A stretch of DNA of 64,000 nt from a bacterium. GTDB taxonomy: Bacteria; Sysuimicrobiota; Sysuimicrobiia; Sysuimicrobiales; Segetimicrobiaceae. Shown here one piece after another: positions 22,218 to 53,535 of this stretch. Position 1 is the first letter of the stretch. Each line of letters opens with the position of its first letter. The position numbers were made by a program, and so were the translations under genes. Location: positions 1-64,000 of the forward strand of contig DASSJF010000082.1 of the NCBI GenBank assembly GCA_035691305.1, given 5' to 3'. The notes under the pieces were generated by a model. The model was not told the DNA's origin. It did not search any database and was given only the letters and a program-made list of their open reading frames with translations.

Positions 22218-24809
22218 CTACCGGTCTTGGGGCGCGTTCTCCGTGGACGGCGCGCCGGGACGCGGCGGAACCGGCGGCGGCGGCTCGGGCGGCGGAGTGC
22301 CGGGCGGAGGCGGTTCGGGCGGGCCGGGCGGCGGTCCCGGCGGCGGTGGCGTCGCGGGTCCGCCCTGCATGATAATCGTTTCGCGCACCTCGCGGCGGTC
22401 CCCGAATTTCTGGAGCCGCTGCGCCAGATCCGCGAGCCGGCGCTGGACCCGGCCGTTGATCGTGCCGGCCGGATAGTTGCCGTCCTTGTCCGGCGTCCCG
22501 GCCGGGACGCCGGTCAGGATCTCGATCCCGTCGTCGATCGTCCGTGCGGTCCAGACGTGGAATCGGCCTTCGCGCACCGCGTCCACCACCTCGGCGCGCA
22601 GCATCAGGTTGCGGACGTTCTGGTGCGGGATGATGACGCCCTGGCGGCCGGTCAGGCCGCGCGCCTTGCACGTCAGGTAGAAGCCCTCGATCTTTTCGTT
22701 CACGCCGCCGATCGGCTGGATCTCGCCTCGCTGGTTCACAGAGCCGGTCGTGGCGATGCCCTGGCTGATCGGGGCGCCGGCGAGTTCGCTCAGCAGCGCG
22801 TAGAGCTCGGTCGAGCTTGCGCTGTCGCCGTCGACCTCGGAGTACAGCTGCTCGAAGGCGAGCGAGGCGGAGAGGCTGAGGGGCGCCTGCTGCGCGAACC
22901 GGCTGGCGAAGAACGACGAGAGGACGAAGACGCCCTTGCTGTGGATCCGCCCGGACATCTGCGTCTCCCGCTCGATGTTGACGACGCCCCGCGAGCCGAC
23001 GTACACGCGGGCGGTGATCCGGCTCGGCTGCCCGAACGCATAGTCCCCCAGTTGGAGCACCGCGAGCCCGTTGATCTGGCCGGCCACCGCGCCGTCCGTG
23101 TCGACGAGGATCTGGCCGTTCTCGATCGCCTCGCGGATCTTCTCCTCGATCAGGTTGCTGCGATGCGCCTTCTGTTCCACAGCCCGCTTCACGTCTTCCC
23201 GCGTGACGATGTCCCGGCCGGCCTTCTTGGCCCAGGCCGCCGCCTCGAAGACGATTTCCGTGACCTCGTTGAAGCGTGTGCTCAATTTGCCCTGCTCGCC
23301 CGCGACGCGGGTGCCGTGGTCGATCACCTCGGCCACCGCCTGGGCGTCGAACTCGCAGACCCCGCAGCGCCGGGCGATGCCGGTGATCACGCGCGCGTAC
23401 TCGCGCATCGTCTCGGGCGTGCGCTCGACCACGACGTCGAAGTCCGCCCGGATCTTGAACAGCTGCTCGAAGTCTTCGTCGAGCGCGTACAGCAGGTGGT
23501 AGAGATCGGGGGTCCCGACGAGGATGACCTTGATGTTGACCGGGATCGGGTCGGGGCGCAGGGTCGCCGTCGGCAAGGCGCCGGCGGCCTCCCCAAGCGA
23601 CTCGATCCGGATTTCGCCGCCGCGCAGCGCTCGCTTGAGGCCCTCGTAGGCGAACGGGCTCGTCAGCACGTCGCGGACGAGCAGGATGAGGTAGCCGCCG
23701 TTCGCGAGGTGCAGCGCCCCCGGCTTGATCATGCTGAGGTCCGTGACGAGGGCCCCGAACTCGACGCGCAGCTCCGCCCGGCCGACGAGATTGTAATACG
23801 TGGGGTTCGTCTCGACGATCACGGGCGCGCCCTTCGTGTCCGCGTGGTCGACGAGCAGGTTGACCTGGTAGCGCGCGACCGGGTCCCGCCGCGGCATGCC
23901 GGGCAACTCCGGGGGGCGCTGGCCCTCGTCGTCGCCGGTTTGCGTGATCTCGGCGAGATGGTCGAGCATGTCCTGCTTGGCGGCGTCGAAGAACGCGAGC
24001 ACCCGCGGGTGGTCCGCGTACTGCTCGCGGAGCCGTTGGATCGGCGCGTCGATCATGTATTGGGCCGTCTGCCGCTCGAGGTCGCGGAGTGCTTCGCGGC
24101 CCTCCCGTTCGAGCGCCCGCACCTGCCGCAGCGCCTCGGTCACGGAATCGCCGAGTTCGGTCGTGCGCTGCTGCAGCTTCGTCCGGTCGGCCTCCGGCAG
24201 TTGGTTGAACACCTCTTCCGGCACCGGCTTGCCCTGCAGATCGACCGGCACCGTCGCGATGCCCGTCGGGGTGCGCTGCAGCATGAGGCCCTTGCCGCGG
24301 GCCTCGGTCTCGAGGTTCTCCCAGATCTGGCCGACCCGCTGCTCGTAGCGCTTCACGACGTCGGCGCGCCGGCGTTCGTACAGTTCGCTCGTGAACGCCT
24401 GGCGGAGGCCTTCCCGGATCTCGACGAGCAGTTCCCGTACGTCGTGCTGGAACTTGCGGCCGAGTCCGGGCGGCAGCATGATCGCGATTGGCTGGCTCGG
24501 GGAGGCGAAGTTGCGGACGTAGCACCAGTCCGGCGGGACGCGCCCCTCCTTCGCGGCGTCCTGGACGGCCGTGCGCGCGAAGGTCATGCGTCCCGTGCCG
24601 GACGGCCCGCTGATGAAAATGTTGTAGCCCGGCTGGTCGATGCGCATGCCGAAGTCGAGCGCCTGCACCGCGCGCGGCTGGCCTACCAGCCGCGGACTCA
24701 CGTCCGACTGCAGTTCGGCGGTGGTCTTGAAGCCGAGACTCGCGGCGTCGCAGGTGCGGCGGAGCGCGTCCGGGCCGAGTCGCCGGCTGTCATCGAGTGG
24801 AGCTGACAT
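22218..24809 (-). CDS. Lon-related protease (LonC/AAA_32 type)
   Basis: An 863-residue protein with an AAA-like N-terminal region, a long coiled middle (residues 130-270) and a C-terminal Lon protease domain. The Ser-Lys dyad is Ser663 (DGDSASSTE) and Lys706 (GVNEKIEG), 43 residues apart as in classical Lon. The P-loop reads GPSGTGRMT (residues 68-76), with Arg in the Lys position, as in the AAA_32 subfamily, so ATPase activity is doubtful. The last 50 residues are an extreme proline/glycine-rich tail. It is divergent from the secretion operon. Confidence 0.9.
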   Translation of the reverse strand: MSAPLDDSRRLGPDALRRTCDAASLGFKTTAELQSDVSPRLVGQPRAVQALDFGMRIDQPGYNIFISGPSGTGRMTFARTAVQDAAKEGRVPPDWCYVRNFASPSQPIAIMLPPGLGRKFQHDVRELLVEIREGLRQAFTSELYERRRADVVKRYEQRVGQIWENLETEARGKGLMLQRTPTGIATVPVDLQGKPVPEEVFNQLPEADRTKLQQRTTELGDSVTEALRQVRALEREGREALRDLERQTAQYMIDAPIQRLREQYADHPRVLAFFDAAKQDMLDHLAEITQTGDDEGQRPPELPGMPRRDPVARYQVNLLVDHADTKGAPVIVETNPTYYNLVGRAELRVEFGALVTDLSMIKPGALHLANGGYLILLVRDVLTSPFAYEGLKRALRGGEIRIESLGEAAGALPTATLRPDPIPVNIKVILVGTPDLYHLLYALDEDFEQLFKIRADFDVVVERTPETMREYARVITGIARRCGVCEFDAQAVAEVIDHGTRVAGEQGKLSTRFNEVTEIVFEAAAWAKKAGRDIVTREDVKRAVEQKAHRSNLIEEKIREAIENGQILVDTDGAVAGQINGLAVLQLGDYAFGQPSRITARVYVGSRGVVNIERETQMSGRIHSKGVFVLSSFFASRFAQQAPLSLSASLAFEQLYSEVDGDSASSTELYALLSELAGAPISQGIATTGSVNQRGEIQPIGGVNEKIEGFYLTCKARGLTGRQGVIIPHQNVRNLMLRAEVVDAVREGRFHVWTARTIDDGIEILTGVPAGTPDKDGNYPAGTINGRVQRRLADLAQRLQKFGDRREVRETIIMQGGPATPPPPGPPPGPPEPPPPGTPPPEPPPPVPPRPGAPSTENAPQDR

Positions 24810-24848: not shown

Positions 24849-24876
24849 TTGACGAAGCCGGCCGCTTCCGTATATT
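24849..24876 (+). promoter_or_regulatory. Sigma-70-like promoter of the secretion operon
   Basis: TTGACG (24849-24854), a 16-bp spacer and TATATT (24871-24876), 56 bp before the first gene of the operon. GTATAT starts in the -10 region and its complement ATATAC ends about 25 bp further on, making an AT-rich inverted repeat (24870-24901) that could bind a repressor. Confidence 0.6.
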
Positions 24877-24931: not shown

Positions 24932-26251
24932 ATGGAAATTACGCTCGGCTCCGAGTCAGCCGCCCGCATCCGCGCGGTCTTGGGCGACGACATTGATCTC
25001 TCGCCGGCCGCGGTGCCCCGGGCCCTCGCGCGTCTCGCGGAAGAATCGCCCGCGCTCTATTCAGAAATCCTCGACACGCTTTCGGGGTCAGACGTCCGGC
25101 TCGACAGCGAGCGGACCCTGCACCGCCGTCATCGCCGCAATGCACTCCGGCGCGTGTTGTTCGGCTGGGGTGAGTACGAGAGCGAAGCGGGCGACCGGCT
25201 TGTAGCCAAACGCCGCGTCGCAGCCGCGGTGCCGCTCGCACTCGCCGTCGTAATGCTCGCGACGGCGGGAATCTCCTCGCTGCTCCATCGGCCGACTCGC
25301 CTGCCGGCGGGAAGCGCGCCCTTTCCCGTGACGCAGCCGGCTGGTCTGTCCTTGCGCACCGGACGATCCACGATTGGCCCTCGGTCGGCACGCGAGGGTC
25401 CGTGGTGGCCGCCCGCGTCCGGACACACGGTATTGGCCGCTGCCGCAAAATTTCCGGTGGCGGCTCGCGCGACCCCACAGTTGCCGCCGGTTCCGCCGCT
25501 CGCACTGCAGGGGCCCGGCGGATTCGCATTCGCCGGCGCGCCACTGCCACCGTCGATCGTCTTCAACCGCGCGCCGGCCGACGCGGAGCCGGGCGGTTCG
25601 GCCGTGCGTCGCTCTCCCGTTGTTTATGCCCGTGATGCGACCGGGGACACCGCTCCATCGCCGGAGCCGCGTTCGGCACCGGCGGCACCGCGCGCCTTGC
25701 TCGGTCCTCCAACGCTGAAGGTTGGCGATCGAATCGCCGCGCGGCTCGTGACGGCGGTGATCGTCGCGGCCGACGTCCCGCCCGTGCCCGTGGTCGCCCA
25801 GGGCGGCGACGGCTCAACCTGGCTCGGCTACGCCGGGCTTCAGTCCGATCGCCGGGTTCACATCTCTTTTCGCGCGGTCGATCACGCGGGTGCCAGCTCC
25901 GAGGTCGGCCTGCCGCTCGCGGGGATCAACGGGGTGGCGCTCGATCCCGAAAGCATGTCGCCGGGCCTGCCAGGCCGAGCCGTGATTCGGCCGGGCGCGA
26001 CCGTCGTCGCCTCGATTACGGCTGTTGCGCAGGCCGCGTCCGAGTACGTTCAGGCGGTCGCGCGCGCCGCTCAATTTACGGTGTCCGACGGTGGGACGCA
26101 GATTACCGTAGGTGGACCCGCGCCCGGATGGACGTACGCGGCGTCACACTTCGCCGACATGCTCAACTCGCAGACGGCACGTATCGCAATCGAAACATTC
26201 GAAGTGGGACCGGGCGCGCCGTGCCTCATTCTGATCACCGGAGCTCCTTGA
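24932..26251 (+). CDS. VirB10/TrbI-like membrane protein of the secretion operon
   Basis: A 439-residue protein. It has a soluble N-terminus (residues 1-95), one transmembrane helix (about 96-118, VPLALAVVMLATAGISSLL), a 120-residue proline-rich stretch, and a folded C-terminal domain from about LKVGDRIAARLVTAVI (residue 265). The order inside/helix/proline-rich/beta domain and the G-x-x-I-x-A-x-L-x-T-x-I opening match VirB10/TrbI, but similarity is remote. VirB10 normally spans the envelope and senses ATPase activity. ATG 24932 with GGAG upstream is preferred over TTG 24917. It is the first gene of the operon. Confidence 0.6.
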   Translation: MEITLGSESAARIRAVLGDDIDLSPAAVPRALARLAEESPALYSEILDTLSGSDVRLDSERTLHRRHRRNALRRVLFGWGEYESEAGDRLVAKRRVAAAVPLALAVVMLATAGISSLLHRPTRLPAGSAPFPVTQPAGLSLRTGRSTIGPRSAREGPWWPPASGHTVLAAAAKFPVAARATPQLPPVPPLALQGPGGFAFAGAPLPPSIVFNRAPADAEPGGSAVRRSPVVYARDATGDTAPSPEPRSAPAAPRALLGPPTLKVGDRIAARLVTAVIVAADVPPVPVVAQGGDGSTWLGYAGLQSDRRVHISFRAVDHAGASSEVGLPLAGINGVALDPESMSPGLPGRAVIRPGATVVASITAVAQAASEYVQAVARAAQFTVSDGGTQITVGGPAPGWTYAASHFADMLNSQTARIAIETFEVGPGAPCLILITGAP

Positions 26252-26253
26252 AA

Positions 26254-26553
26254 ATGCGAGCTGTAACGAGCGCTCTGACAGCCGTGATCGTCCTGTCCGG
26301 GACGACACGCGTTTACGCTCAGACGCCCGGCGCCGGCGGTGATCTCTTTGCACCGCTCACCAATCTCTTCAACCAGGCGGCCCTGAGTCTGTCGGGAGCG
26401 TTCGGGCTGGCTTATGCGACGGCGGCGCTGCTCGTCGCCGGCGCGGTGATCATTGCCGATCATCGTAACGGCATCCGGAACGCCCTGTGGGTGATCATCG
26501 GTTCCGTAGTATTGTTCTTCGGCGGGCAGATTATTCGGATGATCCACGGGTAG
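26254..26553 (+). CDS. VirB2/TrbC-like pilin subunit
   Basis: A 99-residue protein with a signal peptide (cleavage near VYAQT, residue 22) and two hydrophobic helices (about residues 48-68 and 74-95) joined by a short charged loop, DHRNG. This is the hallmark of VirB2/TrbC pilins and of pilin-like inner-membrane subunits. It starts 2 bp after the VirB10-like stop and is followed by the VirB3-like gene, the conserved order in conjugation operons. Whether a pilus is built is unknown. Confidence 0.75.
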   Translation: MRAVTSALTAVIVLSGTTRVYAQTPGAGGDLFAPLTNLFNQAALSLSGAFGLAYATAALLVAGAVIIADHRNGIRNALWVIIGSVVLFFGGQIIRMIHG

Positions 26554-26570
26554 GGTCGAGGAGGTACGTT

Positions 26571-26891
26571 GTGCTGCCCCGACATGCCGTGTACCGCAAG
26601 CTGGATGCTCCTGTCACGTTCCTCGGAGTGGAGCTCGAAGACTGGTTCGGGCTCGGCGTGGCGTTCGTGGTGTTGTCCCGGGTGAGTGATCTGCTTGTCG
26701 GACAGGCACTCGGATGGCCTCGTGCCGAGGCCGGGGTGTCCGCGTGCGCCACGGGACTGGTTTTCGCCGCCTGGCGTGGCGTCCGCGAGCGAGCGCCTCG
26801 GCATTTCCTGCGACACTTCCTGGAGTTTGTCGGTGAGCCCGCTTCGTACGAGCTCGTGGCCGATCGGGACGTCAATCCGTACGTCGGTTGA
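26571..26891 (+). CDS. VirB3/TrbD-like membrane protein
   Basis: A 106-residue protein. Its opening, LPRHAVYRKLDAPVTFLGVE, matches the VirB3/TrbD start, where a short R/L-D-x-P-x-x-F-x-G segment leads into one or two membrane helices (residues 26-70). It starts at GTG 26571 behind GAGGAGG. In known systems VirB3 binds VirB4 at the membrane, and here the VirB4-like gene begins 6 bp after its stop. Confidence 0.75.
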   Translation: MLPRHAVYRKLDAPVTFLGVELEDWFGLGVAFVVLSRVSDLLVGQALGWPRAEAGVSACATGLVFAAWRGVRERAPRHFLRHFLEFVGEPASYELVADRDVNPYVG

Positions 26892-26897
26892 CGACTG

Positions 26898-29384
26898 ATG
26901 TGGCCGTTTGAACCGCCCGGAAATCTGACGCGTGAGCTGCCGTACTGGACCATCCGGGACGGCGCCGTCGTGCTTCGTGACGGTAGCTACCGGTTGGGGT
27001 TCGAGCTCAGGCTTCCGGGAACGGAATTGTGGGATGCTGCGCAGCTCGCCCGTAGCAACGACCAGCTTCGAACTTTGTTCAATGCAGCGGTCCCGGAAGG
27101 TGAATGTCTCCGCGTACTGCTCGAAGTGCACGACGATTGCCGCGAGGTGCTTCACGCCCATGCCCAAGTTCCCGCGCGCCCGCAGCAGGAGCGTGTGTTG
27201 GAGCTCCACCGACGCCGGACGGCTGCGCTCGCCGCCGAGCACGATGCCGGCCGCTTCGCGAACTACCGGCTCGTACTGGACCTGTCGTATCATCCTCCGC
27301 GGCGTGCGCGGCGCTGGTGGACGTCGGTGGACGCCGAGACCTACCGGATCCACCAAGTCGAGCTGCACGCGCTTCGGGAAGTAATGACGACACACTGCGC
27401 GCGCTGCGGGTTTAGCGCCTGCCCGCTCGATGATGGCGGACTCTCCGCCGTGATTTGGCGGTTCTTCAACCCCGGCCGAAAGAGGCGGGATAGAGCGCCG
27501 TCGGCCCCGGTAGACATCTCGCTCGAAATCCCCCGGCGGCTCCTGCAAACGGAGCCGTCGTTTGGCCGCGGCTCCCTGCGAACGGCGCTGGTGCGATCCG
27601 ACCTCCACCGTCGATGGGATTTCTTGTGGATGGACGGGTGTGCCCACGCGGTCGTCGCGATGGACGTCCTGCCCGATCGACCCACGACGCCGAACCTCAT
27701 CGCCCCGTTGCTCGAACTGCCCGGCTCCTACTGGCTCATTGTGGAAGCTTGGAACGACCGGCGGTCCGAGCAACTGAAGCGCCTCGAGTTGAAGAGCCGC
27801 TTGAGCCGTCAGGCAGTGCTCGCTCAGGACGGCGGAGATTCGAATGCGCGAGCCGTCGAGCAGCAGGTGGCCGGGGCTCTGGACGTGATGCAGCTGACCG
27901 GCGAGCGCGTGATGCGGGTCGGCGCGGCAGTCGTAGTCCAGGAACCGAGCCCCGAGCGGACGCGTGAGGCCGCCCGCCGGGCCCTTGACGCGTTCCGACA
28001 AATTCCCGGCGTGGACGCGCGCATTGAATCGGTCGCGCTTCGACGACAGTTCTTTCAACTGGCGCCCTTCAGCGGACTGCCCAACGAACGGTTGCTTCGC
28101 ATGCTGACAAGCAACGCCGCCGATTTCTTCCCATGCGCAGCGCCCTGGCGCGGAGCCGAACGCCCGGTGTGTCTGTTCACGACCCGCGCGCATAGTCTCG
28201 TTGCGCTCGATCCGTTCGACCCGCGCCTTCCGTCGTGGAACGCCGTCGTGGTCGGCGAGTCCGGAGGCGGCAAAACTCACTTTGCCCTCGCCTGGCTGTC
28301 TCGCCTGTTGGTGCTCGAGCCCGTCGTGTTCATCGTGGACAAGGGCGGCGCCTACCGGACCTTTTGCCACGTGTACGGCGGCCAGCACGTGCATATCGAT
28401 CCGGGCGCAGACGTGTCGATCAATCCGTTCGCGCTGCTGCCCGGAGAAACCGAACCCGATCCCGCGCATCTCGGGCTACTCCGGGCGCTGATCGCGCTGA
28501 TGGTTGCGGAGCCCGGCGAGGCGCCGGGGCGCAGGGAAATGGCACTGATCGACGACGCGATCCGGCAGGCGTACGCGCGTGCCGGCGGCGCGCCGGTCTT
28601 TCTTCATGATGTGTGCCACACGCTGCGGACATTCGAGCAGGCGGGCGCACGGGGGGCGGGGACCGACGATTGGCGTACGGCGGCGGACCTTGCCGGGCGC
28701 TTGGATCTGTGGATCCACGATGGCGTGTACGGGCGTCTGCTCGACCGGCCGTCCACGATGGATTTGCGGGCCGATATCGTCTGCTTCGACACCGAGGGCC
28801 TCGATGAACAATACCCGGAACTCGCGCCGATTGTCGCGCTGCTCGCGAACCATCTGATCTATCAGCGCGTGCGTTCCGACCGCGGCCGTCTCAAGTATGT
28901 CGTGAGCGATGAAACATGGGCGTCGTTGCTCAACCGGGTCGCGGCGGAGTCCCTCGTCGGGATGTTTCGCCGGTTTCGGAAATTTGGTGCCGGGATTATG
29001 GCCATCAGCCAAAGACTGGGTGACTTCGAGAACGAACACGCGCGCGGGATTTTGGAGAACGCGCCGCTCAAGGTGCTGACGCGAGCGGCCGATATCGACC
29101 GCGTGGCGCCGCTTCTCAATCTCAACGACCAACACCGGATGCTGTGGAAAAGTCTCACGCAGCGGCCCGGTGTGCTCAACGAAGTGCTCGTGCTCCTCGA
29201 CCTACTGGAGGGGCGGGAGGGCGGCGTCGTCGTTCTGCGCGAGATTCCCGAAGACTATCTGATCGGCACGACGACCGCGGCCGAATGCCTCGAGCGCGAC
29301 CGCCTCGCTGCGAAAATCGGCGCATGGCCGGCCATTGACGAGCTGGCGCGTCGGCGGAGGGAACGATGTGGATCCGTAGGATGA
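26898..29384 (+). CDS. VirB4/TrbE-family ATPase
   Basis: An 828-residue motor ATPase. Walker A is GESGGGKT (Lys459) and Walker B YVVSDETW (Asp671-Glu672). Both sit in the C-terminal FtsK/HerA-like half, which also has the expected VFIVDKGGAYR and MAISQRLGDFEN segments. The N-terminal half (residues 1-430) is the CagE/TrbE/VirB4 domain. All catalytic features are intact, so the machine should be energised. VirB4 is the universal ATPase of type IV secretion. Its 3' end overlaps the next gene by 19 bp. Confidence 0.92.
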   Translation: MWPFEPPGNLTRELPYWTIRDGAVVLRDGSYRLGFELRLPGTELWDAAQLARSNDQLRTLFNAAVPEGECLRVLLEVHDDCREVLHAHAQVPARPQQERVLELHRRRTAALAAEHDAGRFANYRLVLDLSYHPPRRARRWWTSVDAETYRIHQVELHALREVMTTHCARCGFSACPLDDGGLSAVIWRFFNPGRKRRDRAPSAPVDISLEIPRRLLQTEPSFGRGSLRTALVRSDLHRRWDFLWMDGCAHAVVAMDVLPDRPTTPNLIAPLLELPGSYWLIVEAWNDRRSEQLKRLELKSRLSRQAVLAQDGGDSNARAVEQQVAGALDVMQLTGERVMRVGAAVVVQEPSPERTREAARRALDAFRQIPGVDARIESVALRRQFFQLAPFSGLPNERLLRMLTSNAADFFPCAAPWRGAERPVCLFTTRAHSLVALDPFDPRLPSWNAVVVGESGGGKTHFALAWLSRLLVLEPVVFIVDKGGAYRTFCHVYGGQHVHIDPGADVSINPFALLPGETEPDPAHLGLLRALIALMVAEPGEAPGRREMALIDDAIRQAYARAGGAPVFLHDVCHTLRTFEQAGARGAGTDDWRTAADLAGRLDLWIHDGVYGRLLDRPSTMDLRADIVCFDTEGLDEQYPELAPIVALLANHLIYQRVRSDRGRLKYVVSDETWASLLNRVAAESLVGMFRRFRKFGAGIMAISQRLGDFENEHARGILENAPLKVLTRAADIDRVAPLLNLNDQHRMLWKSLTQRPGVLNEVLVLLDLLEGREGGVVVLREIPEDYLIGTTTAAECLERDRLAAKIGAWPAIDELARRRRERCGSVG

Positions 29385-30367
29385 GCCGGGTGCTGCGGGT
29401 TTGTGCCATCGCGGCCGGCCTGGCCGGTTTTCCGTTGCTCTGCACGTTCGGCGCGGCGGCTCAGATTGCCCCACCGCCATTTCTTCCGTGGCCCCCGGCG
29501 ATTCCGGACCCCGCCGGACCTGCGTGGCCCGGATCTGCTCCGTCCGGGGGCGCGATCGGCCCGGCCGCCGCGATCGCGCTCGGAGACGTTATCGCGGTCG
29601 TGCAGGCCGGCGTAGACAAACTCCGTCAGTTCATGGAGTCGCTGCGCGAAACCGCAGCCGCGGCCCTGGCGCAAATCGTGCTACCGCTTCCGATCGGGGT
29701 CCCTGGGCCCGTCGCGCCCGCCGACGTGCTGACACAACTGGCGGGCCTGCCCGACGCGTGGCGTTCGATCATTGCCGGCGCGTTGGCGAAACTCCGGCCG
29801 CTCGATCTAGCGGATGCGGCCCAGACCCGGCGTCGACGGGACATCGCCGGCAGCCCTCAACTGTCCCACGAGGCCGTTACGATCGCGGCGGCGGACCAGC
29901 AGCTCATCGCCGGTGCCGCCCAACAGGAGATCGCCGCCGCCTCCACGCAGGCGCTTGCCTCAGCGGCCGCCGGCGACACCTCGCTGCCTCTCGCGGTCGC
30001 GGCGGCGCAGAGCGCGGCGGATATGCTGGCATCCGGCGCCCGAGATCTCCCCAGTTCGCGCGCCGGCATCGAGTTGCTCGTGGCGGGCGCGGGCGCCGGT
30101 CTGCGAGATCAGGCGGCCCTCACGACCGCCCTCGCGGACCGCCTTGTCGGCCTCATGCAGCAGTCCGCCCAATTGAGCAGCCAGATCGGCGGCCTCGCCT
30201 CGGCGACGGGGCTCTTCACCGAGCGTGCGCTCGAGCGGGATCGAGACGCTCTCGACGCCCGTCTCGGACTCGCGGACGCCGCCCGCGGCGGCACCGATTT
30301 CCTGCGGCAACTGCTTCTCGGGGCGGGCGAGCCGGCCGATGAGATTCGGATCGGGCCGCTGTACTGA
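29366..30367 (+). CDS. Exported helical protein, VirB5/TrbJ-like by position
   Basis: A 333-residue protein with a signal peptide (MWIRRMSRVLRVCAIAAGLA, cleavage near GAAAQIA). A proline-rich segment follows, then a long alanine/glutamine-rich helical region (residues 180-310) with heptad-like spacing. It has no enzymatic motif. TrbJ and VirB5 proteins have the same signal peptide plus helical design and often lie between VirB4 and VirB6, as here. Sequence identity is too low to be sure. It starts within the end of the VirB4 gene with AGGG upstream. Confidence 0.55.
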   Translation: MWIRRMSRVLRVCAIAAGLAGFPLLCTFGAAAQIAPPPFLPWPPAIPDPAGPAWPGSAPSGGAIGPAAAIALGDVIAVVQAGVDKLRQFMESLRETAAAALAQIVLPLPIGVPGPVAPADVLTQLAGLPDAWRSIIAGALAKLRPLDLADAAQTRRRRDIAGSPQLSHEAVTIAAADQQLIAGAAQQEIAAASTQALASAAAGDTSLPLAVAAAQSAADMLASGARDLPSSRAGIELLVAGAGAGLRDQAALTTALADRLVGLMQQSAQLSSQIGGLASATGLFTERALERDRDALDARLGLADAARGGTDFLRQLLLGAGEPADEIRIGPLY

Positions 30368-30376
30368 GCGCTGCCG

Positions 30377-31420
30377 GTGACCGGCCTCGAGCACGGCATC
30401 GCAGACGTCTTTGCGTCGTTTGACGCCTGGTTGGTCACGACCGGCGCGACCGCGTCTATCATGCGGCTGGCCTGGGCTGTGCTGTCGGTCGTCTGGCTCG
30501 CCCACATCGCGGTCTCCACGAGGCCGGGCCGCGAGCCCGACTTAGTCGGCGCGTTTGCGCGCTTGCTGCTGGTGGGAGGGTTGCTCTCGGGAATCGGCGG
30601 GTTGACCCGCGCGATTCTTCTCGGCTTCGAAACGTTTCGGAGCGCCGGTGCGGCCGTCCTGGACGGCCTCATCGGGCAGACGTGGAGTCAATTTGTGCAG
30701 AGTACGCTGATTCCCCAGTTCGGTCAGATGCTCCGCGTATCGTCGGCGTGGTTCGTCTATCCGTGGGCCATCGCCGTGCTGGTCGCCGGCGCGGGATTGG
30801 GCGTCGTGCTCTTTGGGATCGGCACCGCGGTGTATCTGGCCATTCTTTTTTTCGCGCATCTCACGCTGCTCGTGGCTCTGTTCCTTGCCCCCGTGGCGAT
30901 CGCGCTCCTGGCCGCTCCCTCGACGCAACGATGGACGGCCCGGTGGGCGCTGATCGTCGTGCGGGTGGGGCTCGTGGTATTCTGCGTGCGGCTGGTACAC
31001 GCCGCGGCACTGTACCTCGCTGTCATTGTACCCTTTCGCGAGGTCGCCGCCGCTCTTCCAACCGATCCGCAGAGCGGCACGGGACTCGCCGGCTTTGGCG
31101 CGATCTTGTGGCGGCTCGCCGTGCTCCTGTTCCTCATGCTCGTCGGTACGGTGATCGGGGTATACGCAATGCTTCGCGTCGAACGGCTCGTTGCCCAGTT
31201 TGTCGACAGTCCCTCGTTCGGGCAGTCCGTGCTGGCCGGGCCGATGTGGGCCCGCGGTCAGATTGCCGTGGCGTACGCGCGCGCCGCCCGCGGCGTGCCC
31301 GAGGCAAGCGTCGGCGCGGGGGCGGGGGGGTTCCTCGAGCAGCGCGCAGCGGCGGATCAGGGGGCTGGTGGTGCGCAGGACGCCGCGGCGCTGCGCGGCA
31401 GTCGCCGGCCGTGGCAGTGA
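30377..31420 (+). CDS. VirB6/TrbL-like polytopic channel protein
   Basis: A 347-residue membrane protein with about six helices between residues 25 and 265 (for example VLVAGAGLGVVLFGIGTAVY and LAILFFAHLTLLVALFLAPV). A Gly/Ala-rich polar C-terminal tail of about 70 residues follows. The helices before a central loop followed by the LFLAPVAIALL segment resemble VirB6/TrbL, the inner-membrane channel of type IV systems. Position after VirB4- and VirB5-like genes supports this. It starts at GTG 30377; its TGA overlaps the GTG of the next gene. Confidence 0.72.
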   Translation: MTGLEHGIADVFASFDAWLVTTGATASIMRLAWAVLSVVWLAHIAVSTRPGREPDLVGAFARLLLVGGLLSGIGGLTRAILLGFETFRSAGAAVLDGLIGQTWSQFVQSTLIPQFGQMLRVSSAWFVYPWAIAVLVAGAGLGVVLFGIGTAVYLAILFFAHLTLLVALFLAPVAIALLAAPSTQRWTARWALIVVRVGLVVFCVRLVHAAALYLAVIVPFREVAAALPTDPQSGTGLAGFGAILWRLAVLLFLMLVGTVIGVYAMLRVERLVAQFVDSPSFGQSVLAGPMWARGQIAVAYARAARGVPEASVGAGAGGFLEQRAAADQGAGGAQDAAALRGSRRPWQ

Positions 31421-32007
31421 AGCGGCGCGCGAGCCGGTGGCGGGTGGTTCTCGGAACAGCGATCGTGGCGTGGTTGGTGTGGACGCCCGTTTCCGCCCGC
31501 GGGCAGTTGATCCCGGCCGGCTTCAGCGCGGCTGTCCTGTCGTTTGTCGACGCCGCGGCCGGACGGGTCGAAGTCGTCCGCCACTGGCCCGACGCTCCGG
31601 TGGATGTCAGCGTGTATCCCTACGTCCCGTACTTCTGGAGCGGCTGTCCGGGGGTCGGTGCGGTCATGATTCTTGTGACGGCACCGGGCCGCATCGATCA
31701 CGGCTCCTCGGTCGTACCGGACGATCCGATCGCGGTCGCGGCGGGCAACCGCCTGGCGGAAGCCGTCCGGCGTGGGTCGATGGGGCCGGTCGATACGCCG
31801 GAGCTCCGGCAGGTCGTTTCGGGCCTTCGCGCTCCGGGAGATCCTATCTTTGAAGCCGCGAAGTCGCTCGCTCCCGCCATTGCCGATCTGAGGACTTATG
31901 AACGGCGCGGGTACGCCGTCTTCGCCTTCGTCGTGTGGCAGGGCTGGCGGTGCGGCGTGGTCGTTCGTGCCGTTCCTGAAGGATACGGCATCCCTTTCGT
32001 CCGCTGA
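31417..32007 (+). CDS. Exported protein of unknown function inside the secretion operon
   Basis: A 196-residue protein with an N-terminal signal anchor or signal peptide (WRVVLGTAIVAWLVWTPVSA, cleavage near SARGQ). The mature domain of about 165 residues has two cysteines (WSGCPGVG and WRCGVV) and a beta-rich C-terminus. It matches no VirB class I can name. Its start overlaps the VirB6-like stop by 3 bp, and the coupling protein follows 1 bp after its own stop, so it is fully embedded and is probably a structural part of the apparatus. It could stand in for VirB8 or VirB9; that is conjecture. Confidence 0.6.
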   Translation: MKRRASRWRVVLGTAIVAWLVWTPVSARGQLIPAGFSAAVLSFVDAAAGRVEVVRHWPDAPVDVSVYPYVPYFWSGCPGVGAVMILVTAPGRIDHGSSVVPDDPIAVAAGNRLAEAVRRGSMGPVDTPELRQVVSGLRAPGDPIFEAAKSLAPAIADLRTYERRGYAVFAFVVWQGWRCGVVVRAVPEGYGIPFVR

Positions 32008-32008
32008 G

Positions 32009-33895
32009 ATGTCGGTCCGTTCATCCGCTTCACGAGACGCCCGTTTTGCGCGACGTCGCGAACTCTGCCGGCGCCTTCGGCCGTCCCTGACGGCGTGGTT
32101 CCCGCTGGGTTACCTTCCTCCGTGGCCGGCGGCCCTCGCCTGGTGGCGCCGGTTCTCGCGATCCGCGGCGCCGGCGTGCCTGCGCGGTCCTCGCCTGTGT
32201 CTGCCCGCCGCGGATCTCGCAAGACACGTCTTGATCACTGGACTTACCGGCGCCCACAAGACGACCGCGGTCATACTGCCGGCGCTTGCGGATGCGGCGG
32301 CGGCGGGTGTGTCGGCCGTGGCTTTTGATCTCAAGTACGGCGAACGCGACAGCCTCGCCGGCGCGATTCCGGAGTGGTGGCGCCACGGCCGCGCCGTGCT
32401 CGTCTACGCTCCGCTGGACGGCGCCTCCCTGCGGTGGAATCCGCTCGGCGCATGCCGCTCGATGGGCGACGCCTATGCGCTTGCGGTGCACCTCTTTCCC
32501 GACGATGCTCGGGAAACGGCGGACTTCGGTTATTGGACGGGCGCCGAGCGGCACGTCTGCGCGGCGCTCGTTTGGGGCGTGGTGACGGACGGCGGCGCGC
32601 CCTCCATCGCGCGCCTGCGTGCGCTTGCCGAGGCCGGCCCGGACGCGGTCGTCGCGTATCTCCGCCGGCATCCGCGCGCAGGAGAGATCAACGCGCGCCT
32701 CGGTGCCTATGGCGCCATGCTGCCGAAAGACCGGGCGGGCATCCTGCAGGGAATCGCAGCCCGCCTGGAGCCGTGGGCTGACGAACGTGTTGCTTTGTCC
32801 ACCGCGGATCCCGGCGACAATCAGGCGCCGGACGCGATTTCACTCGCGCGGCTGCGCCGCGAGCCGACACTGCTGCTGATCGGGGTGCCGCAGGCCGCCC
32901 TCTTACGGCTCCGTCCCGTTTGTCAGCTCTTCATGCGGATGCTCGCCGCGGAGATGCTGCAGCCGCGCGGGGGTGACGAGACGGTTCCGGTGGTGTACGT
33001 CCTCGAAGAGCTGCCGGCGTGGGGTCCGCTGCCCGGTCTGGCGGACCATTTGGCGACGTTCCGGAGCCGCGACGTGGCCATTGTCGCGACGGTGCAGAGC
33101 GAGGCTCAGGGCGAAGCCGTCTATGGGGCAAGCGGCTGGGCGGCGATCTCGGCCAATTTCGTTACGAAGATCTACTTGTCGTCATTGGCGGATCCGGACG
33201 CGGAACGCTTGAGCCACGCCCTCGGCACGACAACGGTTGCGCGGACGTCGCACAGTCGGGTCTGGGGTGGAAACGGCCGTCGGGACGCCGCGCAGACGCA
33301 CCTGGTGGAGGTACCGCTCAGCAAGCCTGAGGACCTTCAAGGCATCGACACGGCGGAGGATGAGATCTTGCTGCGGTGCTCCCGTCTGCCGCCGGCGCGC
33401 TTGTGGTGTCCGCCGTTTCACGCGCGTTTCCCGTACGCGGGGCTGATTCCGGAGATCGCCCCGTCGACCGTGGAGATTGCGATCAGGCATCGGCTCCGGT
33501 CGTCGGGCGACGCGCTCACAGCGTCGCCCAAGGGAGCGATGCCGGCTCCCGTCGAGGCGGGCGGCGCTGTTCTTCCTGTGGTTGCGGCTGACGATGCCGA
33601 CACTCTGAACGGTTTCGTCCGAGCTCTCCTGGGCAGCGACCGCGATGGCCCCGATCCTCATGTTGTGTGTCGCGGAGATCGCGCGGTTGAGGTGCGGGTC
33701 CAACCCGCGGTGGCTTTTCGGTTGTTGGGCGGGCGCGAGAGAGCGCCGGCGGTTGTGCACCGATGGGTAGCCCTTCGGTGGGTGCGACGCGTGCAGCCGC
33801 TCTTTGTGCTCGAGCGACGCGCGGTGGAGGCGTTGGAGCCGCAGCTACTGCGCCGCCTTGTCACTCACATGGGCCGGCACACGCGGTTGACCTGA
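32009..33895 (+). CDS. VirD4/TraG-like coupling ATPase
   Basis: A 628-residue protein with coupling-protein hallmarks. The P-loop region is GLTGAHKT (residues 78-85, Lys84), followed by FDLKYGERDSLAG, RWNPLG, GYWTGAERHVCAAL and a Walker B-like VVYVLEELP near residue 330. The segment TVQSEAQGEAVYG is the TraG/VirD4 sensor region. His replaces the second glycine of the P-loop. Unlike VirD4 it has little N-terminal membrane region: one weak hydrophobic stretch near residues 35-45. The last 150 residues look like a separate domain. In known systems the coupling protein selects DNA or protein substrates. Confidence 0.85.
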   Translation: MSVRSSASRDARFARRRELCRRLRPSLTAWFPLGYLPPWPAALAWWRRFSRSAAPACLRGPRLCLPAADLARHVLITGLTGAHKTTAVILPALADAAAAGVSAVAFDLKYGERDSLAGAIPEWWRHGRAVLVYAPLDGASLRWNPLGACRSMGDAYALAVHLFPDDARETADFGYWTGAERHVCAALVWGVVTDGGAPSIARLRALAEAGPDAVVAYLRRHPRAGEINARLGAYGAMLPKDRAGILQGIAARLEPWADERVALSTADPGDNQAPDAISLARLRREPTLLLIGVPQAALLRLRPVCQLFMRMLAAEMLQPRGGDETVPVVYVLEELPAWGPLPGLADHLATFRSRDVAIVATVQSEAQGEAVYGASGWAAISANFVTKIYLSSLADPDAERLSHALGTTTVARTSHSRVWGGNGRRDAAQTHLVEVPLSKPEDLQGIDTAEDEILLRCSRLPPARLWCPPFHARFPYAGLIPEIAPSTVEIAIRHRLRSSGDALTASPKGAMPAPVEAGGAVLPVVAADDADTLNGFVRALLGSDRDGPDPHVVCRGDRAVEVRVQPAVAFRLLGGRERAPAVVHRWVALRWVRRVQPLFVLERRAVEALEPQLLRRLVTHMGRHTRLT

Positions 33896-33940
33896 GTGCG
33901 GTCGAGCGCGATAAGATCACATGCGCAGGAGCACACGGCG

Positions 33941-34186
33941 ATGGCGGCGGACGCTTGGGAACTTAGAACCGCTCGTCTCGACGGCGCGTGCGAGCAGGTC
34001 GATCGACGTCTCGGTGCGTTGGAGACACGGCTCGGCTTCGTCGAGAACCGCATCACCGTGCTGGATCAACGAATGAACGCGGGTTTCGCCCAGGTTCGCG
34101 CCGAGATGCGGAGCCAGTTCTTTTGGCTGCTCGGCGTGATGTTCTCCGGGTTCCTGGCGTTGGGGCTCAACTTGATCACGCACTAG
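33941..34186 (+). CDS. Small coiled-coil protein with C-terminal membrane anchor
   Basis: An 81-residue protein. Residues 8-55 form a regular heptad coiled coil (CEQVDRRLGALETRLGFVEN, then RITVLDQRMNAGFAQVRAEM), followed by a single transmembrane helix, FFWLLGVMFSGFLALGLNLI, at the C-terminus. This tail-anchored design occurs in phage holin-like or XhlA-type proteins and in small membrane scaffolds. It follows the coupling-protein gene by 45 bp on the same strand and may be the last gene of the operon. Confidence 0.65.
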   Translation: MAADAWELRTARLDGACEQVDRRLGALETRLGFVENRITVLDQRMNAGFAQVRAEMRSQFFWLLGVMFSGFLALGLNLITH

Positions 34187-34258: not shown

Positions 34259-36562
34259 GTGGATGTTGCCCGCGTCCTTGCCGACGTCCGCCGCGACCCT
34301 CGCTATCGCGATCAGATCGTGCACGAGGAGGCGTTTGCGGCCCGATCCGCGCGGTACGCGGAGCCGGCGCGGCCGCTTTCCGCGCCGCTCGCCGATGCAC
34401 TGAGCCGGCGCGGCGTGACGCGGCTCTTCACGCACCAGGCGGCGGCGCTCGACACGATCCGCGACGGCGAGTCGGTCATCGTCACGACCAGCACGGCGAG
34501 CGGCAAGACGCTCTGCTACCTGCTGCCTGTGCTCGAGGAGCTCGTCCGCGACCCCGACGCCCGGGCGCTCTTCATCTATCCGACCAAGGCGCTCGCCCAG
34601 GACCAGGCGGACGCGATCGGCGAGTTTGCGTCGCTGCTCCCCGGTTTGATCTACGGGACCTATGACGGCGATACGCCGGCGGAGGAACGCCGGCGCCTGC
34701 GCCAGGCCGGCCGCGTGCTCCTGACCAATCCCGACATGCTGCACGTCGGGATCCTCCCGCAGCACTTCCGGTGGTGGCGGCCGTTTCTCAAGTCGCTGCG
34801 GTACGTCGTGCTCGACGACATGCACGTCTACCGCGGCGTCTTCGGCAGCCACGTCGGGCTCGTGCTGCGCCGCTTGTGGCGGACCTGCCGGGTGCACGGG
34901 TCCGCGCCGCAGGTCATCTGCACCTCGGCGACGATCGCGAACCCGCAGGAGTTCGGGAGCCGGCTCACCGGCCGGCCCCTGCGGCTCGTGGACGACGACG
35001 GAGCACCGCGCGGGCCTCGCCGGTTCGTGCTCTGGAACCCGCCGGTCGTTGCGCGCCGCGAAATGCGGCGGCGCAGCCCGTACTCGGAAGCGGCGTGGCT
35101 GCTCGCGTCGCTCGTCCGCCGGTCCGCCCGCACCATCGTGTTCACGAAGGCGCGGAAAATCACCGAGCTGGTCTACAAGTACGCGACCGATGCGCTCTCG
35201 GACGCGCCGGCGCTCGCCTCGCAGTTGAGCCCGTATCGCGCGGGGTACCTGGCGAAGGACCGACGCGCGATCGAGCAGCGGCTCTTTCGCGGCGAACTCC
35301 TCGGGGTGGTGAGCACGAGCGCCCTCGAGTTGGGGATCGACGTCGGCGCCCTCGACGCGGCGGTGCTGGTCGGGTACCCGGGGACGATGGCAAGCGTCTG
35401 GCAGCGCACCGGGAGGGCGGGGCGGGGGACAGAGGCCTCCCTCTCGGTGCTCATCGGACTCGAAGATGCGCTGGACCAATATCTCATGCGGCGCCCGGCC
35501 TACTTTTTCGGGCGGCCGGTCGAGCACGCGACGGTCGACCCGGACAACCCCTACATCCTCGCGGCCCACCTTCGCTGCGCCGCGGCGGAGCTCGCGCTCG
35601 ACGTGAGGGACGAGGCGTTGTTCGGGCCGCGGATGGCGGAGGTGGCGAGGGCGCTCGAGGGACTGGGGGAGCTTGTCCGCCGGCGGGAGAAGTGGCATCC
35701 GCGGACGCGCGCCTACCCGGCGCGCCAGGTCGACATCCGCGCGGCGTCCGGCGATGCCTACCGGATCGTGGAAGCCGAGTCCCGCCGGCTGCTCGGGACC
35801 GTGGACTCGTCGCGCGCGTTCGAGCAGGTGCACCCCGGGGCGATCTATCTGCACCAGGGTGAAGCATACCGCGTGCTGCGGTTGGACTTCGAGACGCACC
35901 ACGCGCTGGTCGAGCGCGACGACGGCGGCTACTACACCGAGGCGCGGGTGCTCACGGATCTCACGATCACAGGCGAGCGGGCCTCCCGGCCGCTCGGCTC
36001 ATCCGGCGTGACGGCCTGTTTCGGGGACGTCTGCGTCACGCAGCAGGTCATCGAATACCGTCGCAAGCAGCTGGCGAGCGAGACGGTGCTCGGCGTTCAT
36101 CCGCTCGAGATGCCGGAGGAGGAGCTGCGCACGACCGCGCTCTGGCTGGTGCTCCCGCCCGCCGTCGCGGCGGGCGTCGGGGACCGGGGGCTCGATCTCG
36201 CGGGCGGGATCCACGCCGTCGAACACGCCGCGATCGGGATCCTGCCGCTCTTTGCGATGTGCGACCGGTGGGACATCGGCGGGGTGAGTTACCCCGTGCA
36301 CCCCGAGACCGGCCGGGCGACGATCTTCATTTACGACGGGTATCCGGGCGGCGTCGGCGTGACGGAGAAGGGCTACGACCTGCTGGACGGCCTGCTCGCC
36401 CGGACGCTCGAGGTGATCGAGTCGTGTCCGTGCGAAGCCGGGTGTCCCTCCTGCATCCAGTCCCCGAAGTGCGGCAACCTGAACGAGCCGCTCGACAAAG
36501 CGGCGGCCGTGCACCTGCTTCGAGGGCTTCTCCGCGAGGCCGCTCCACCCGCGACACGATAA
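34259..36562 (+). CDS. DEAH-like helicase with DUF1998 zinc domain (MrfA/Hrq1/YprA family)
   Basis: A 767-residue superfamily 2 helicase. Motif I is TSTASGKT (residues 77-84), with YPTKALAQDQ after it and a helicase C domain (STSALELGID, QRTGRAGRG). The DUF1998 tail carries Cys723, Cys725, Cys729, Cys732 and Cys738. This is the domain order of MrfA, which repairs mitomycin-type DNA damage with its partner nuclease MrfB. Motif II reads DDMH (186-189), where relatives have DE-x-H. No MrfB-like gene is adjacent. It starts at GTG 34259, matching the usual family start ahead of VHEEAF. Confidence 0.9.
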   Translation: MDVARVLADVRRDPRYRDQIVHEEAFAARSARYAEPARPLSAPLADALSRRGVTRLFTHQAAALDTIRDGESVIVTTSTASGKTLCYLLPVLEELVRDPDARALFIYPTKALAQDQADAIGEFASLLPGLIYGTYDGDTPAEERRRLRQAGRVLLTNPDMLHVGILPQHFRWWRPFLKSLRYVVLDDMHVYRGVFGSHVGLVLRRLWRTCRVHGSAPQVICTSATIANPQEFGSRLTGRPLRLVDDDGAPRGPRRFVLWNPPVVARREMRRRSPYSEAAWLLASLVRRSARTIVFTKARKITELVYKYATDALSDAPALASQLSPYRAGYLAKDRRAIEQRLFRGELLGVVSTSALELGIDVGALDAAVLVGYPGTMASVWQRTGRAGRGTEASLSVLIGLEDALDQYLMRRPAYFFGRPVEHATVDPDNPYILAAHLRCAAAELALDVRDEALFGPRMAEVARALEGLGELVRRREKWHPRTRAYPARQVDIRAASGDAYRIVEAESRRLLGTVDSSRAFEQVHPGAIYLHQGEAYRVLRLDFETHHALVERDDGGYYTEARVLTDLTITGERASRPLGSSGVTACFGDVCVTQQVIEYRRKQLASETVLGVHPLEMPEEELRTTALWLVLPPAVAAGVGDRGLDLAGGIHAVEHAAIGILPLFAMCDRWDIGGVSYPVHPETGRATIFIYDGYPGGVGVTEKGYDLLDGLLARTLEVIESCPCEAGCPSCIQSPKCGNLNEPLDKAAAVHLLRGLLREAAPPATR

Positions 36563-51928: not shown

Positions 51929-52266
51929 CGGCGGAGTCGACGGTTGAGCGGACGGCTTCCTCGTACCGGGCCCGAAGCACTTGGATAGCCATGACGAATA
52001 GGGTTTGGTGCTGGGGGACTGGCGTCGCGATGGTTCGCGTTGGTGTGCTATGGTTTCTTGTCTACCATGTATGGACGAACCAGCAAAGTCTGACCACCTT
52101 GCCCCTCCTGTTGTTGCTATTTCCAGAGGCAATGCTTCTGCCAGGTTCGGTCGTGTGGACCACGCATCTTGCCATGCTGTTCAGTGCGGTTTTAGTGGCG
52201 GGCAGTTTCTTGTGGGTGCTCATATTGTCTTTCGTCACGCGACGAATCGGCCGCAGCCCCATGTAG
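51925..52266 (+). CDS. Small polytopic membrane protein, low GC
   Basis: A 113-residue frame starting at GTG 51925, overlapping the oxidoreductase stop, or more probably at ATG 51991 (91 residues). Three hydrophobic segments are visible: VGVLWFLVYHVW, TLPLLLLLFPEAMLL and LAMLFSAVLVAGSFLWVLIL, with a basic tail RRIGRSPM. I recognise no family. Base composition is about 52% GC, far below the flanking 65-70%, which marks the segment as acquired. Confidence 0.5.
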   Translation: MTAESTVERTASSYRARSTWIAMTNRVWCWGTGVAMVRVGVLWFLVYHVWTNQQSLTTLPLLLLLFPEAMLLPGSVVWTTHLAMLFSAVLVAGSFLWVLILSFVTRRIGRSPM

Positions 52267-52308
52267 TGTGCGAGATTCTACCTTTCTTGGCGCTACACGG
52301 TCGCGCTG

Positions 52309-52584
52309 GTGCCCGCCAAAGGGCCGACGATGGGCAGTGGTGTTCTGGTGTCACGTGGCACGGATTTGTTCGTCGCGACGGCGCATCACGTCACTGAGGT
52401 CCCCGATCCCGACGATCTCCACTGTATTCCCAAGCCGCCCCGGCCGATCAACATGAAAGGAGGCCGATTCAGCGTAATCGAAACGGATCGAAAATCCGTG
52501 AACCACAACGAAAACCTTTCGGCCTCCGCACGGCCCGGGAAGATGCATCTCTTCAACCCGGAGACGCACGCGGCCATTTTGTAG
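52309..52584 (+). pseudogene. Trypsin-like protease fragment fused to the duplicated ATPase 3' end
   Basis: A 91-codon frame. The first 25 residues, with MGSGVLVSRGTDLFVATAHH then V, match the start of trypsin-like peptidases, where the His of TA-x-H is catalytic; the Asp and Ser parts are missing. After a low-complexity link the frame ends GKMHLFNPETHAAIL, the C-terminus of the ABC ATPase, because it runs in frame into the right att-like repeat. It is a chance fusion made by the integration event, not a functional enzyme. Confidence 0.6.
52540..52574 (+). repeat. Right copy of the att-like direct repeat
   Basis: Identical over 35 bp to 49590-49624. It probably keeps the original chromosomal end of the ATPase gene, with a TAG stop instead of TGA and the native downstream region. 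A perfect 7-bp hairpin (ACTACCC/GGGTAGT, 52615-52632) 41 bp further on may be the native terminator. Confidence 0.9.
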
Positions 52585-52709
52585 GGGCCGGCGAAGGTCG
52601 AAGGCGATTCCAAAACTACCCGCCTGGGTAGTGTGACTCCGCGGCCGTCCCGGGTATCGTGTGGGTACGAGGTGACGGCATCCCGATAGACGGGGAAGGG
52701 GTACCGACG

Positions 52710-52913
52710 ATGCAAACGTTTACGTTGATTCGGACGTGGGTGGCGGCCAGAGGGCAACACGTCGGCGAGCGCGGCCAGGCTACCGTCGAGTACGCACTGA
52801 TCATTATGGGCCTGGCGCTCTTCTTGGTCGTAGCAGCTTTTGCCCTGCAACCCGTGCTTGCCAACCCGGTCGCCCGGATCAGTACATGGATCGGCGCACA
52901 GAACGCACCGTAA
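52710..52913 (+). CDS. Flp/Fap-type pilin
   Basis: A 67-residue prepilin. A basic leader ends in GERG, followed by QATVEYALIIMGLALFLVVA: cleavage after Gly puts the conserved Glu at position 5 of the mature protein (QATVE-Y), the Flp signature. The rest is a single helix plus a short tail. Flp pilins build thin bundle-forming fibres or type II-like pseudopili. ATG 52710 is chosen because GGGGAAGGGG lies upstream. A PilB/GspE-type ATPase gene lies 1.3 kb downstream; a processing peptidase is not visible. Confidence 0.8.
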   Translation: MQTFTLIRTWVAARGQHVGERGQATVEYALIIMGLALFLVVAAFALQPVLANPVARISTWIGAQNAP

Positions 52914-52959
52914 CGGCCGCGCGGCGCCGCCTTATAACGACGTCTCCGCTCTAGCGGCC

Positions 52960-53535
52960 TCAACCGACTGACAGATCACGGACAAACCATTCCGCGGTCA
53001 CATCATACTTGTGTGCCACGAGCATCGACCGCTTCCGCATGTCTTTGCGTGCGCAGGTGATGGCCACTTGAACCGCGCCTCGGCGTTTGGCCTCACGGGC
53101 CATCGTATAGAGCAAGGCCATGCCGACGCTGTTCCATAGCGTAGGCGCACCAACGAAGAAATCATCGACGACGCAGGTGAGGCCCCCGGGGTCGTACACG
53201 GCCGGGGGTTGCTGAAGGGTCCCGATGATGACGCCGTTGACGTTGCTGTCCTGCACGTTGACCAGGACGATGGCGCGGTTATCGTGAAGCAGATTCTCCA
53301 TCGCGGGAACGAGTTTTCCGCGCGCATCCGTCGCCTCTCGCCAGAACCTTGAGTGATACTGTCGGTATTCGGTGCGTTTATTCTCGACAAGACTGGCGAT
53401 CTGCGGAATGTCAGTACGTACCGCCACACGCACATGGATCGGGGAGCCCTCGACGGCGGGCTGAGCCGATTCCAAATTCCCCGGAACGAGACGCTCGGCT
53501 GCCATCGTCGTGTGGCGCTCCTTTAGGTGGGCCAC
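52960..53535 (-). CDS. GNAT-like N-acetyltransferase
   Basis: A 191-residue protein with a GNAT-like fold from about residue 33 (HVRVAVRTDIPQIASLVENK). A central beta strand and the CoA-binding region follow: CVVDDFFVGAPTLWNSVGMA, then LLYTMAREAKRRGAVQVAI and the KRSMLVAHKYDVTAEWFVRD ending. The canonical Q/R-x-x-G-x-G/A loop is weak here (WNSVGMALL). The substrate is unknown. The first 32 residues are poorly conserved-looking, and an internal ATG at residue 11 is another possible start. It stands alone on the minus strand between pilin and secretion genes. Confidence 0.6.
   Translation of the reverse strand: MAHLKERHTTMAAERLVPGNLESAQPAVEGSPIHVRVAVRTDIPQIASLVENKRTEYRQYHSRFWREATDARGKLVPAMENLLHDNRAIVLVNVQDSNVNGVIIGTLQQPPAVYDPGGLTCVVDDFFVGAPTLWNSVGMALLYTMAREAKRRGAVQVAITCARKDMRKRSMLVAHKYDVTAEWFVRDLSVG

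Follow-up and report, generated by a model that had tools for sequence, protein, structure and literature searches.

An eight-gene operon and its flanks

The window analysed here is a 64,000-nucleotide stretch of bacterial DNA (contig DASSJF010000082.1, assembly GCA_035691305.1), and our subject is a cluster of eight packed plus-strand genes at 24932-33895, with junctions of -19 to +17 bp, whose products resemble a type IV secretion system (T4SS). A sequence-only reading had proposed such an operon behind a single promoter; gene calls, Pfam and NCBIfam searches, a fold comparison and relatives showed the eight-gene T4SS-like operon to be real, with the VirB5 call made by position only, and a putative promoter of sigma-70 type precedes the first gene. 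With moderate confidence, we regard the operon as supplying the channel and the motor of a conjugation-type T4SS that is complete but dispersed, and that one family has domesticated and passed on vertically. The features are as follows (coordinates, strand, description, basis).

22218..24809, -, LonB-like ATP-dependent protease, conserved left flank that marks the fixed site, outside the system (PF13654 1.6e-51, PF05362)
24849..24876, +, putative sigma-70-like promoter TTGACG-16-TATATT before the operon (consensus scan, 10/12 positions match)
24932..26251, +, g1, VirB10-like, 439 aa (fold match to T4SS cores)
26254..26553, +, g2, VirB2/TrbC pilin, 99 aa (PF04956 6.8e-10)
26571..26891, +, g3, VirB3/TraL, 106 aa, GTG start (PF07178 via relatives)
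26898..29384, +, g4, VirB4/TraC ATPase, 828 aa, Walker motifs intact (TIGR02746 4.7e-55, motif alignment)
29366..30367, +, g5, exported, VirB5 position, 333 aa (position only)
30377..31420, +, g6, VirB6/TrbL membrane protein, 347 aa, GTG start (PF04610 via relatives)
31411..32007, +, g7, exported, family unassigned, 198 aa, GTG start (conserved columns)
32009..33895, +, g8, VirD4-1 coupling protein, 628 aa (PF10412 8.5e-24, PF12696 6e-19)
33896..34186, +, g9, small coiled-coil open reading frame (ORF), probably outside the system (homologue in G002 only)
34259..36562, +, HRQ1/MrfA-type DEAD-box helicase, conserved right flank that marks the fixed site (PF00270, PF09369, PF22982)

VirB2, VirB4/TraC and VirD4 could be recognised from the window proteins alone by Pfam and NCBIfam, and g4 is the sole VirB4 of the TraC type in the source genome. 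The assignments of g3 and g6 came through relatives, with PF07178 (TraL) matched in 9 of 13 (best 2.8e-7) and PF04610 (TrbL) in 9 of 12 (best 8.3e-10), respectively. When the AlphaFold model of g1 was compared with the PDB by Foldseek, the top four matches were all T4SS outer-membrane-core proteins (the Dot/Icm dome 9ngw, 1.8e-6; the X. citri core 6gyb_C, 5.3e-6; H. pylori Cag 6x6s, 5.9e-4; 3jqo, 3.5e-3), so that by predicted fold g1 is the VirB10 scaffold; a g1 homologue also adjoins VirB4 in Thermus. No family match was obtained for g5 in the Pfam and NCBIfam searches, and the gene is conserved in this and further families. The exported protein g7 likewise matched no family, yet across 15 homologues, one of them from an integrative conjugative element (ICE) in the relative G005, it keeps 26 invariant columns. 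One of its cysteines is invariant and another nearly so, and its C-terminus bears a PEGY-IP motif that is strongly conserved; judged by this conservation, g7 appears to be a hallmark of this T4SS type. Structure prediction, which had been suggested as a check on both proteins, thus bore out the VirB10 fold and left g7 with a poor model (pLDDT 52) whose fold search yielded nothing usable. Against PDB sequences, profiles built for g1, for g7 and for the VirB9-like protein described below gave chance-level matches only. The possible ninth gene of the sequence-only reading fell away as an operon member, its homologue being present only in G002.

Conservation and descent within the family

The relatives comprised 43 genomes of one order, namely 12 in the window's family (f1), including the source genome G000, and 31 others. 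VirB4 of the operon type is present in 11 of the 12 family genomes at 63-84% identity, and the exception is 64% complete. In all 11, at least one of the two flanks, the LonB-like protease or the HRQ1/MrfA-type helicase, stands beside the operon, and within the stretches examined both do so in seven, which agrees with the earlier description of the flanks as ordinary chromosome. The sequence upstream of g2 deviates in G006, where it is neither g1 nor the protease, reflecting either a rearrangement or a misassembly. The proposed check on whether the gene order recurs in related genomes was answered in the affirmative, and this recurrence places the operon far beyond chance.

The VirB4 sequences of the family form a single clade with full support. 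In IQ-TREE analyses, the trees of the operon genes agreed with a tree of six chromosomal genes, the only disagreements falling at forks to which the chromosomal tree itself gives weak support. For the closest pair within the family (G007 and G009), dN/dS was 0.06-0.30 for operon genes and 0.07-0.17 for neighbouring chromosomal genes, and purifying selection, with dN/dS of 0.03-0.30, was found on the genes of all three loci of the system, two of which are described below. All three are present in 11-12 of the 12 family genomes at largely fixed sites. An ICE would be expected to show a linked integrase and a variable site; no integrase was seen beside the family's loci, and the flanks are constant across the family. 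The fixed flanks, congruent trees and purifying selection support a domesticated, chromosomal and vertically inherited operon, which is the part of the earlier "domesticated exporter" proposal that held, while export of protein survives only as a rival explanation. Since Omp85 is present in all genomes of the family, the cells are probably diderm, which fits a core of the VirB9/VirB10 type. Elsewhere in the window, positions 52000-54000 have a GC content of 0.60 against about 0.69 and may be a foreign island.

Two further loci and their linkage to the operon

No relaxase lies inside the operon, as had been noted, and the suggestion that a chromosomal secretion or DNA-transfer core might have its relaxase elsewhere was well supported by a MOBC gene and a second VirD4 gene at a second conserved locus outside the window. 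In G000 this locus (locus 2, G000:C38:70313-74037) contains a gene for a single-stranded DNA-binding protein (SSB), downstream of this a gene for a 296-aa protein that matches PF13814 at 9e-21 and, directly after the latter, the second VirD4 gene (VirD4-2). PF13814 is the MOBC relaxase superfamily (PMC5357655), the active site of which is of the restriction-endonuclease PD-(D/E)XK type (PMC12857230). The PD...ExD...K columns are conserved in the family, with SD in G006, and the locus-2 protein is therefore an apparent MOBC-type relaxase as judged by profile and motif. PF13814 scored above cut-off in 12/12 family genomes, and wherever the contig extends far enough, the gene adjoins VirD4-2 and then TatD and M48-protease genes, an ordinary chromosomal neighbourhood with no integrase.

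Every genome of the family has a second VirD4, and nearly all have two VirD4 genes. VirD4-2 carries canonical Walker A and B motifs, whereas the Walker A of VirD4-1 (window 32240-32266) reads GLTGAHKTT: in most of the family, the residue preceding the P-loop Lys is His instead of Gly, while G007 and G009 have a canonical motif and GAGKT is retained in one genus. Because the VirD4-1 motif is mostly degenerate and the gene is lost in G004, VirD4-2 is the better candidate for DNA coupling. What looked in one alignment like the g8 homologue of G004 turned out to be VirD4-2 and was discarded. A second SSB is also present in 12/12 family genomes. In most of them it is next to mobC; in G001 and G002 it shares a contig with mobC at a distance of about 8 kb and about 22 kb, respectively, and in G005 and G009 it stands at the end of a contig, beside the cloverleaf structure described below. 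The families f3-f6 mostly have one SSB, and f2 mostly two.

Among other relaxase families, PF03432 was matched in 0/43 genomes, while PF03389, PF01076, PF02486 and PF07514 were not searched. PF08751 was rejected as the relaxase of this system, its only match being in an accessory module at G000:C39. That module (18-26 kb, L123) combines the gene for a 1075-aa MOBF (TrwC) relaxase with genes for a 538-aa coupling protein and for small proteins of ribbon-helix-helix-like type, and as the sole PF08751 match among the 43 genomes it is an accessory mobilizable element. Another contig, G000:C15, carries at 0.8-3.5 kb (L106) a small element resembling an integrative mobilizable element (IME), with a MOBC-type protein of 366 aa, a helix-turn-helix protein and a tyrosine integrase.

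Between ssb and mobC we found a cloverleaf of about 80 nt, composed of an outer stem and three hairpins (G000:C38:72956-73037, corresponding to L071 11457-11538, minus strand). It occurs exactly once in 10 of the 12 family genomes and in none of the 31 remaining genomes of the order, and Rfam gave no match for the region. Six pairs were changed on both sides, and 94% of cells pair compared with 39-55% in slid controls; the covariation support is moderate, because the alignment consists of eight sequences and is also the source of the derived structure. The cloverleaf may be a transfer origin (oriT), as structured single-stranded DNA beside the relaxase gene, or may act at the RNA level, as the leader of the transcript of mobC and virD4-2. 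The proposed search for a relaxase gene or oriT beyond the window thus returned the PF13814 gene and, in the cloverleaf, an oriT candidate.

The third locus (G000:C25:5825-8517) encodes an 84-aa ORF, a double ribbon-helix-helix (RHH) protein, a VirB9-like protein and a SpoIIIAA-type ATPase, and its order and flanking genes are shared in 11 of the 12 family genomes, the twelfth being the 64%-complete G010. The VirB9-like protein matched PF13629 above cut-off in the family, PF03524 (CagX) at 0.0011 in G017 only, and a weak Thermus homologue. The ATPase has canonical Walker motifs and matched PF19568 at 1.9e-8, compared with 1.4e-4 for PF00437 (G017 only), and it looks like a VirB11 analogue related to VirB11 rather than canonical VirB11. 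It is a second paralogue; the other, which is longer, occurs in nearly every genome of the order. VirB9 and VirB11, which the sequence-only reading had noted as absent from the window, thus have probable counterparts at this locus. The idea that g7 substitutes for VirB9 did not hold either, because relatives from other families have g7 and the VirB9-like gene in one cluster. Near locus 3, at G000:C25 (L095 12101-16999), inspection by eye suggested that a large WD40-repeat ATPase has a caspase-like protein as its neighbour, an arrangement reminiscent of signalling or defence modules.

In several relatives, parts of the system are physically linked. In a variant of the system found in G017 (contig C403, family f7) and G015 (contig C80, family f5), the genes for the VirB9-like protein and the SpoIIIAA-type ATPase are directly upstream of g1, and in G017 a gene for a ribbon-helix-helix-like protein precedes this pair. 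In G029 (f6), a MOBC-like gene adjoins the operon together with VirD4, a DnaG-type zinc finger and SSB. Besides its chromosomal system, G005 has a complete-looking ICE of similar general T4SS type (G005:C11, about 11-45 kb; L046, L107), with a tyrosine integrase, VirB2-, VirB3-, VirB4- and VirB6-like proteins, VirD4, the SpoIIIAA-type ATPase, a g7 homologue and a short MOBC-like protein below the Pfam cut-off. Modules with a linked relaxase, which had been named as a finding that would speak against the sequence-only reading, do exist in relatives (G029 and the G005 ICE), but as separate, more distant copies and not at the operon locus. On a Thermus thermophilus plasmid, homologues of g1, g3, g4, g8, MOBC, the VirB9-like protein and the ATPase lie within about 16 kb (E 7e-4 to 6e-188, 32-protein set). 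The three loci belong together by virtue of their joint conservation, their congruent trees and this physical linkage in relatives. In the simplest history, an ICE or plasmid of this type would have been domesticated in the ancestor of the family and scattered over three sites.

Function, alternatives and precedents

The domesticated machine probably still moves DNA, with VirB4, VirD4-2, the VirB11-like ATPase and the MOBC protein all keeping intact catalytic or Walker motifs. That DNA is the substrate is our inference, as are the place of nicking, the direction in which DNA moves and the identity of the recipient. The MOBC protein would nick the chromosome, perhaps with the aid of the RHH protein and at, or close to, the cloverleaf before its own gene; VirD4-2 would then bring the strand, under the protection of the dedicated SSB, to the channel driven by VirB4 and the VirB11-like ATPase; VirB9 and VirB10 would take it across the outer membrane, and chromosomal DNA would thereby be released or handed to kin. 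More tentatively, and at somewhat less than even odds in our judgement, the family would exchange chromosomal DNA as a core trait through this three-locus machine (MOBC, second SSB, VirD4-2 and a cloverleaf transfer origin), as a bacterial counterpart of the crenarchaeal Ced system that retains export-type DNA processing.

Several observations weigh against a complete DNA-transfer machine. The Walker A of VirD4-1 is degenerate in most members, and in G004 g8 is lost and its site occupied by an MFS gene. No protein of the operon or locus 3 matched a VirB8 family, the rest of the genome not having been searched, and the assignment of VirB9 to the locus-3 protein is weak and tentative. Several tolerated G-U pairs incline the cloverleaf towards RNA. 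G015 (94% complete) and G017 (72%) have the channel and no VirD4 or PF13814 match in the genome, so that there the channel may serve something other than DNA coupling. The genome material consists of draft metagenome-assembled genomes throughout.

Some of these observations favour the main rival, which we consider less likely: a T4SS that, once domesticated, came to export proteins (effectors, or toxins aimed at neighbouring cells) or serves only for building a surface pilus, with the MOBC/VirD4-2 locus as a separate relic or serving protein coupling. G015 and G017, whose channel and VirB9/VirB11-like genes have no VirD4 or PF13814 companion, the unusual VirD4-1 Walker A, and the T4SSs of Patescibacteria, which are mostly relaxase-free and thought to be co-opted (PMC12102498), are in line with it. 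However, protein export needs neither MOBC, VirD4-2 nor a second SSB, yet all genomes of the family keep them, purifying selection acts on them and the catalytic motif is intact, and no effector gene was seen in the operon, a genome-wide effector search not having been made.

It is very improbable that a resident channel is maintained mainly because mobilizable elements use it: G000 does carry the IME-like element and the MOBF relaxase with its coupling protein, neither with a T4SS seen nearby, and the operon holds its sole VirB4 of this type, but a MOBF module in 1/43 genomes cannot account for family-wide conservation, nor does a conserved MOBC gene in an ordinary, integrase-free neighbourhood fit. 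Equally remote is a decaying or silent ICE, to which the related ICE-like copies in the order (G005:C11, G029), the loss of g8 in G004 and the assembly break upstream of g2 in G006 might point, but which is contradicted by family-wide purifying selection at values resembling those of the neighbours, by trees that follow the chromosome, and by a constant site without an adjoining integrase at 63-84% VirB4 identity.

The closest precedents for a dispersed, domesticated T4SS of this kind are Ced and the chromosomal T4SSs of Patescibacteria, with the relaxase retained here. Ced, a system of crenarchaeal DNA exchange, is conjugation machinery domesticated on the chromosome, as here, with a proposed role with cellular DNA (PMC9905601); it imports DNA in archaea, whereas here the MOBC gene, VirD4, VirB9/VirB10 and the outer membrane suggest a diderm that exports DNA. 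Patescibacteria have lineage-wide chromosomal T4SSs, mostly without a relaxase (PMC12102498), and share with our system a VirB4 cluster lacking one, but theirs are of the monoderm MPF-FATA type with rare relaxases, whereas here a TraC-like VirB4 and VirB10 are joined by a MOBC gene in 12/12 genomes. Dispersed T4SS genes are also known from Rickettsia (PMC12102498).

Other systems resemble single aspects. The T4SS of the gonococcal genetic island is chromosomal, has its own MOBH relaxase and exports chromosomal single-stranded DNA (PMC12857230); like the present system it pairs a chromosomally encoded T4SS with its own relaxase gene, but it is F-like and confined to one island, in contrast to MOBC and three fixed loci family-wide. 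Streptococcal MOBC IMEs pair a MOBC gene with a VirD4 gene (PMC5357655; PMC12857230), and pAD1 TraX, CloDF13 MobC and the streptococcal IMEs share PF13814 and the PD-(D/E)XK-type active site with locus 2, the streptococcal ones also the VirD4 pairing. Locus 2 differs in being chromosomal and vertically inherited, with no integrase or replicon seen, and its relaxase is a predicted one. Thermus T4SS plasmids (e.g. pTthSNM3-3c, NZ_AP025611.1) combine homologues of g1, g3, g4, g8, MOBC, the VirB9-like protein and the SpoIIIAA-type ATPase in one locus, as the present system does over three, but they are plasmid-borne and in one piece, their VirB4 is only about 32% identical, and no g7 homologue was found. 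Our searches of the open-access literature turned up no description of a bacterial family in which a T4SS is inherited vertically and a relaxase is conserved along with it.

Relaxase scans limited to the vicinity of virB4 would wrongly label such systems relaxase-less. The concrete gene list obtained here (the relaxase, two VirD4 proteins, the VirB11-like SpoIIIAA-type ATPase and the candidate oriT or leader RNA) makes the question of DNA transfer testable. Among bacteria, it is normally plasmids and ICEs that encode conjugation; if the transfer proposed here is true, uncultured soil bacteria of a whole family may pass their own DNA between cells, which suggests that bacteria, like archaea with Ced, have domesticated conjugation for their own DNA.

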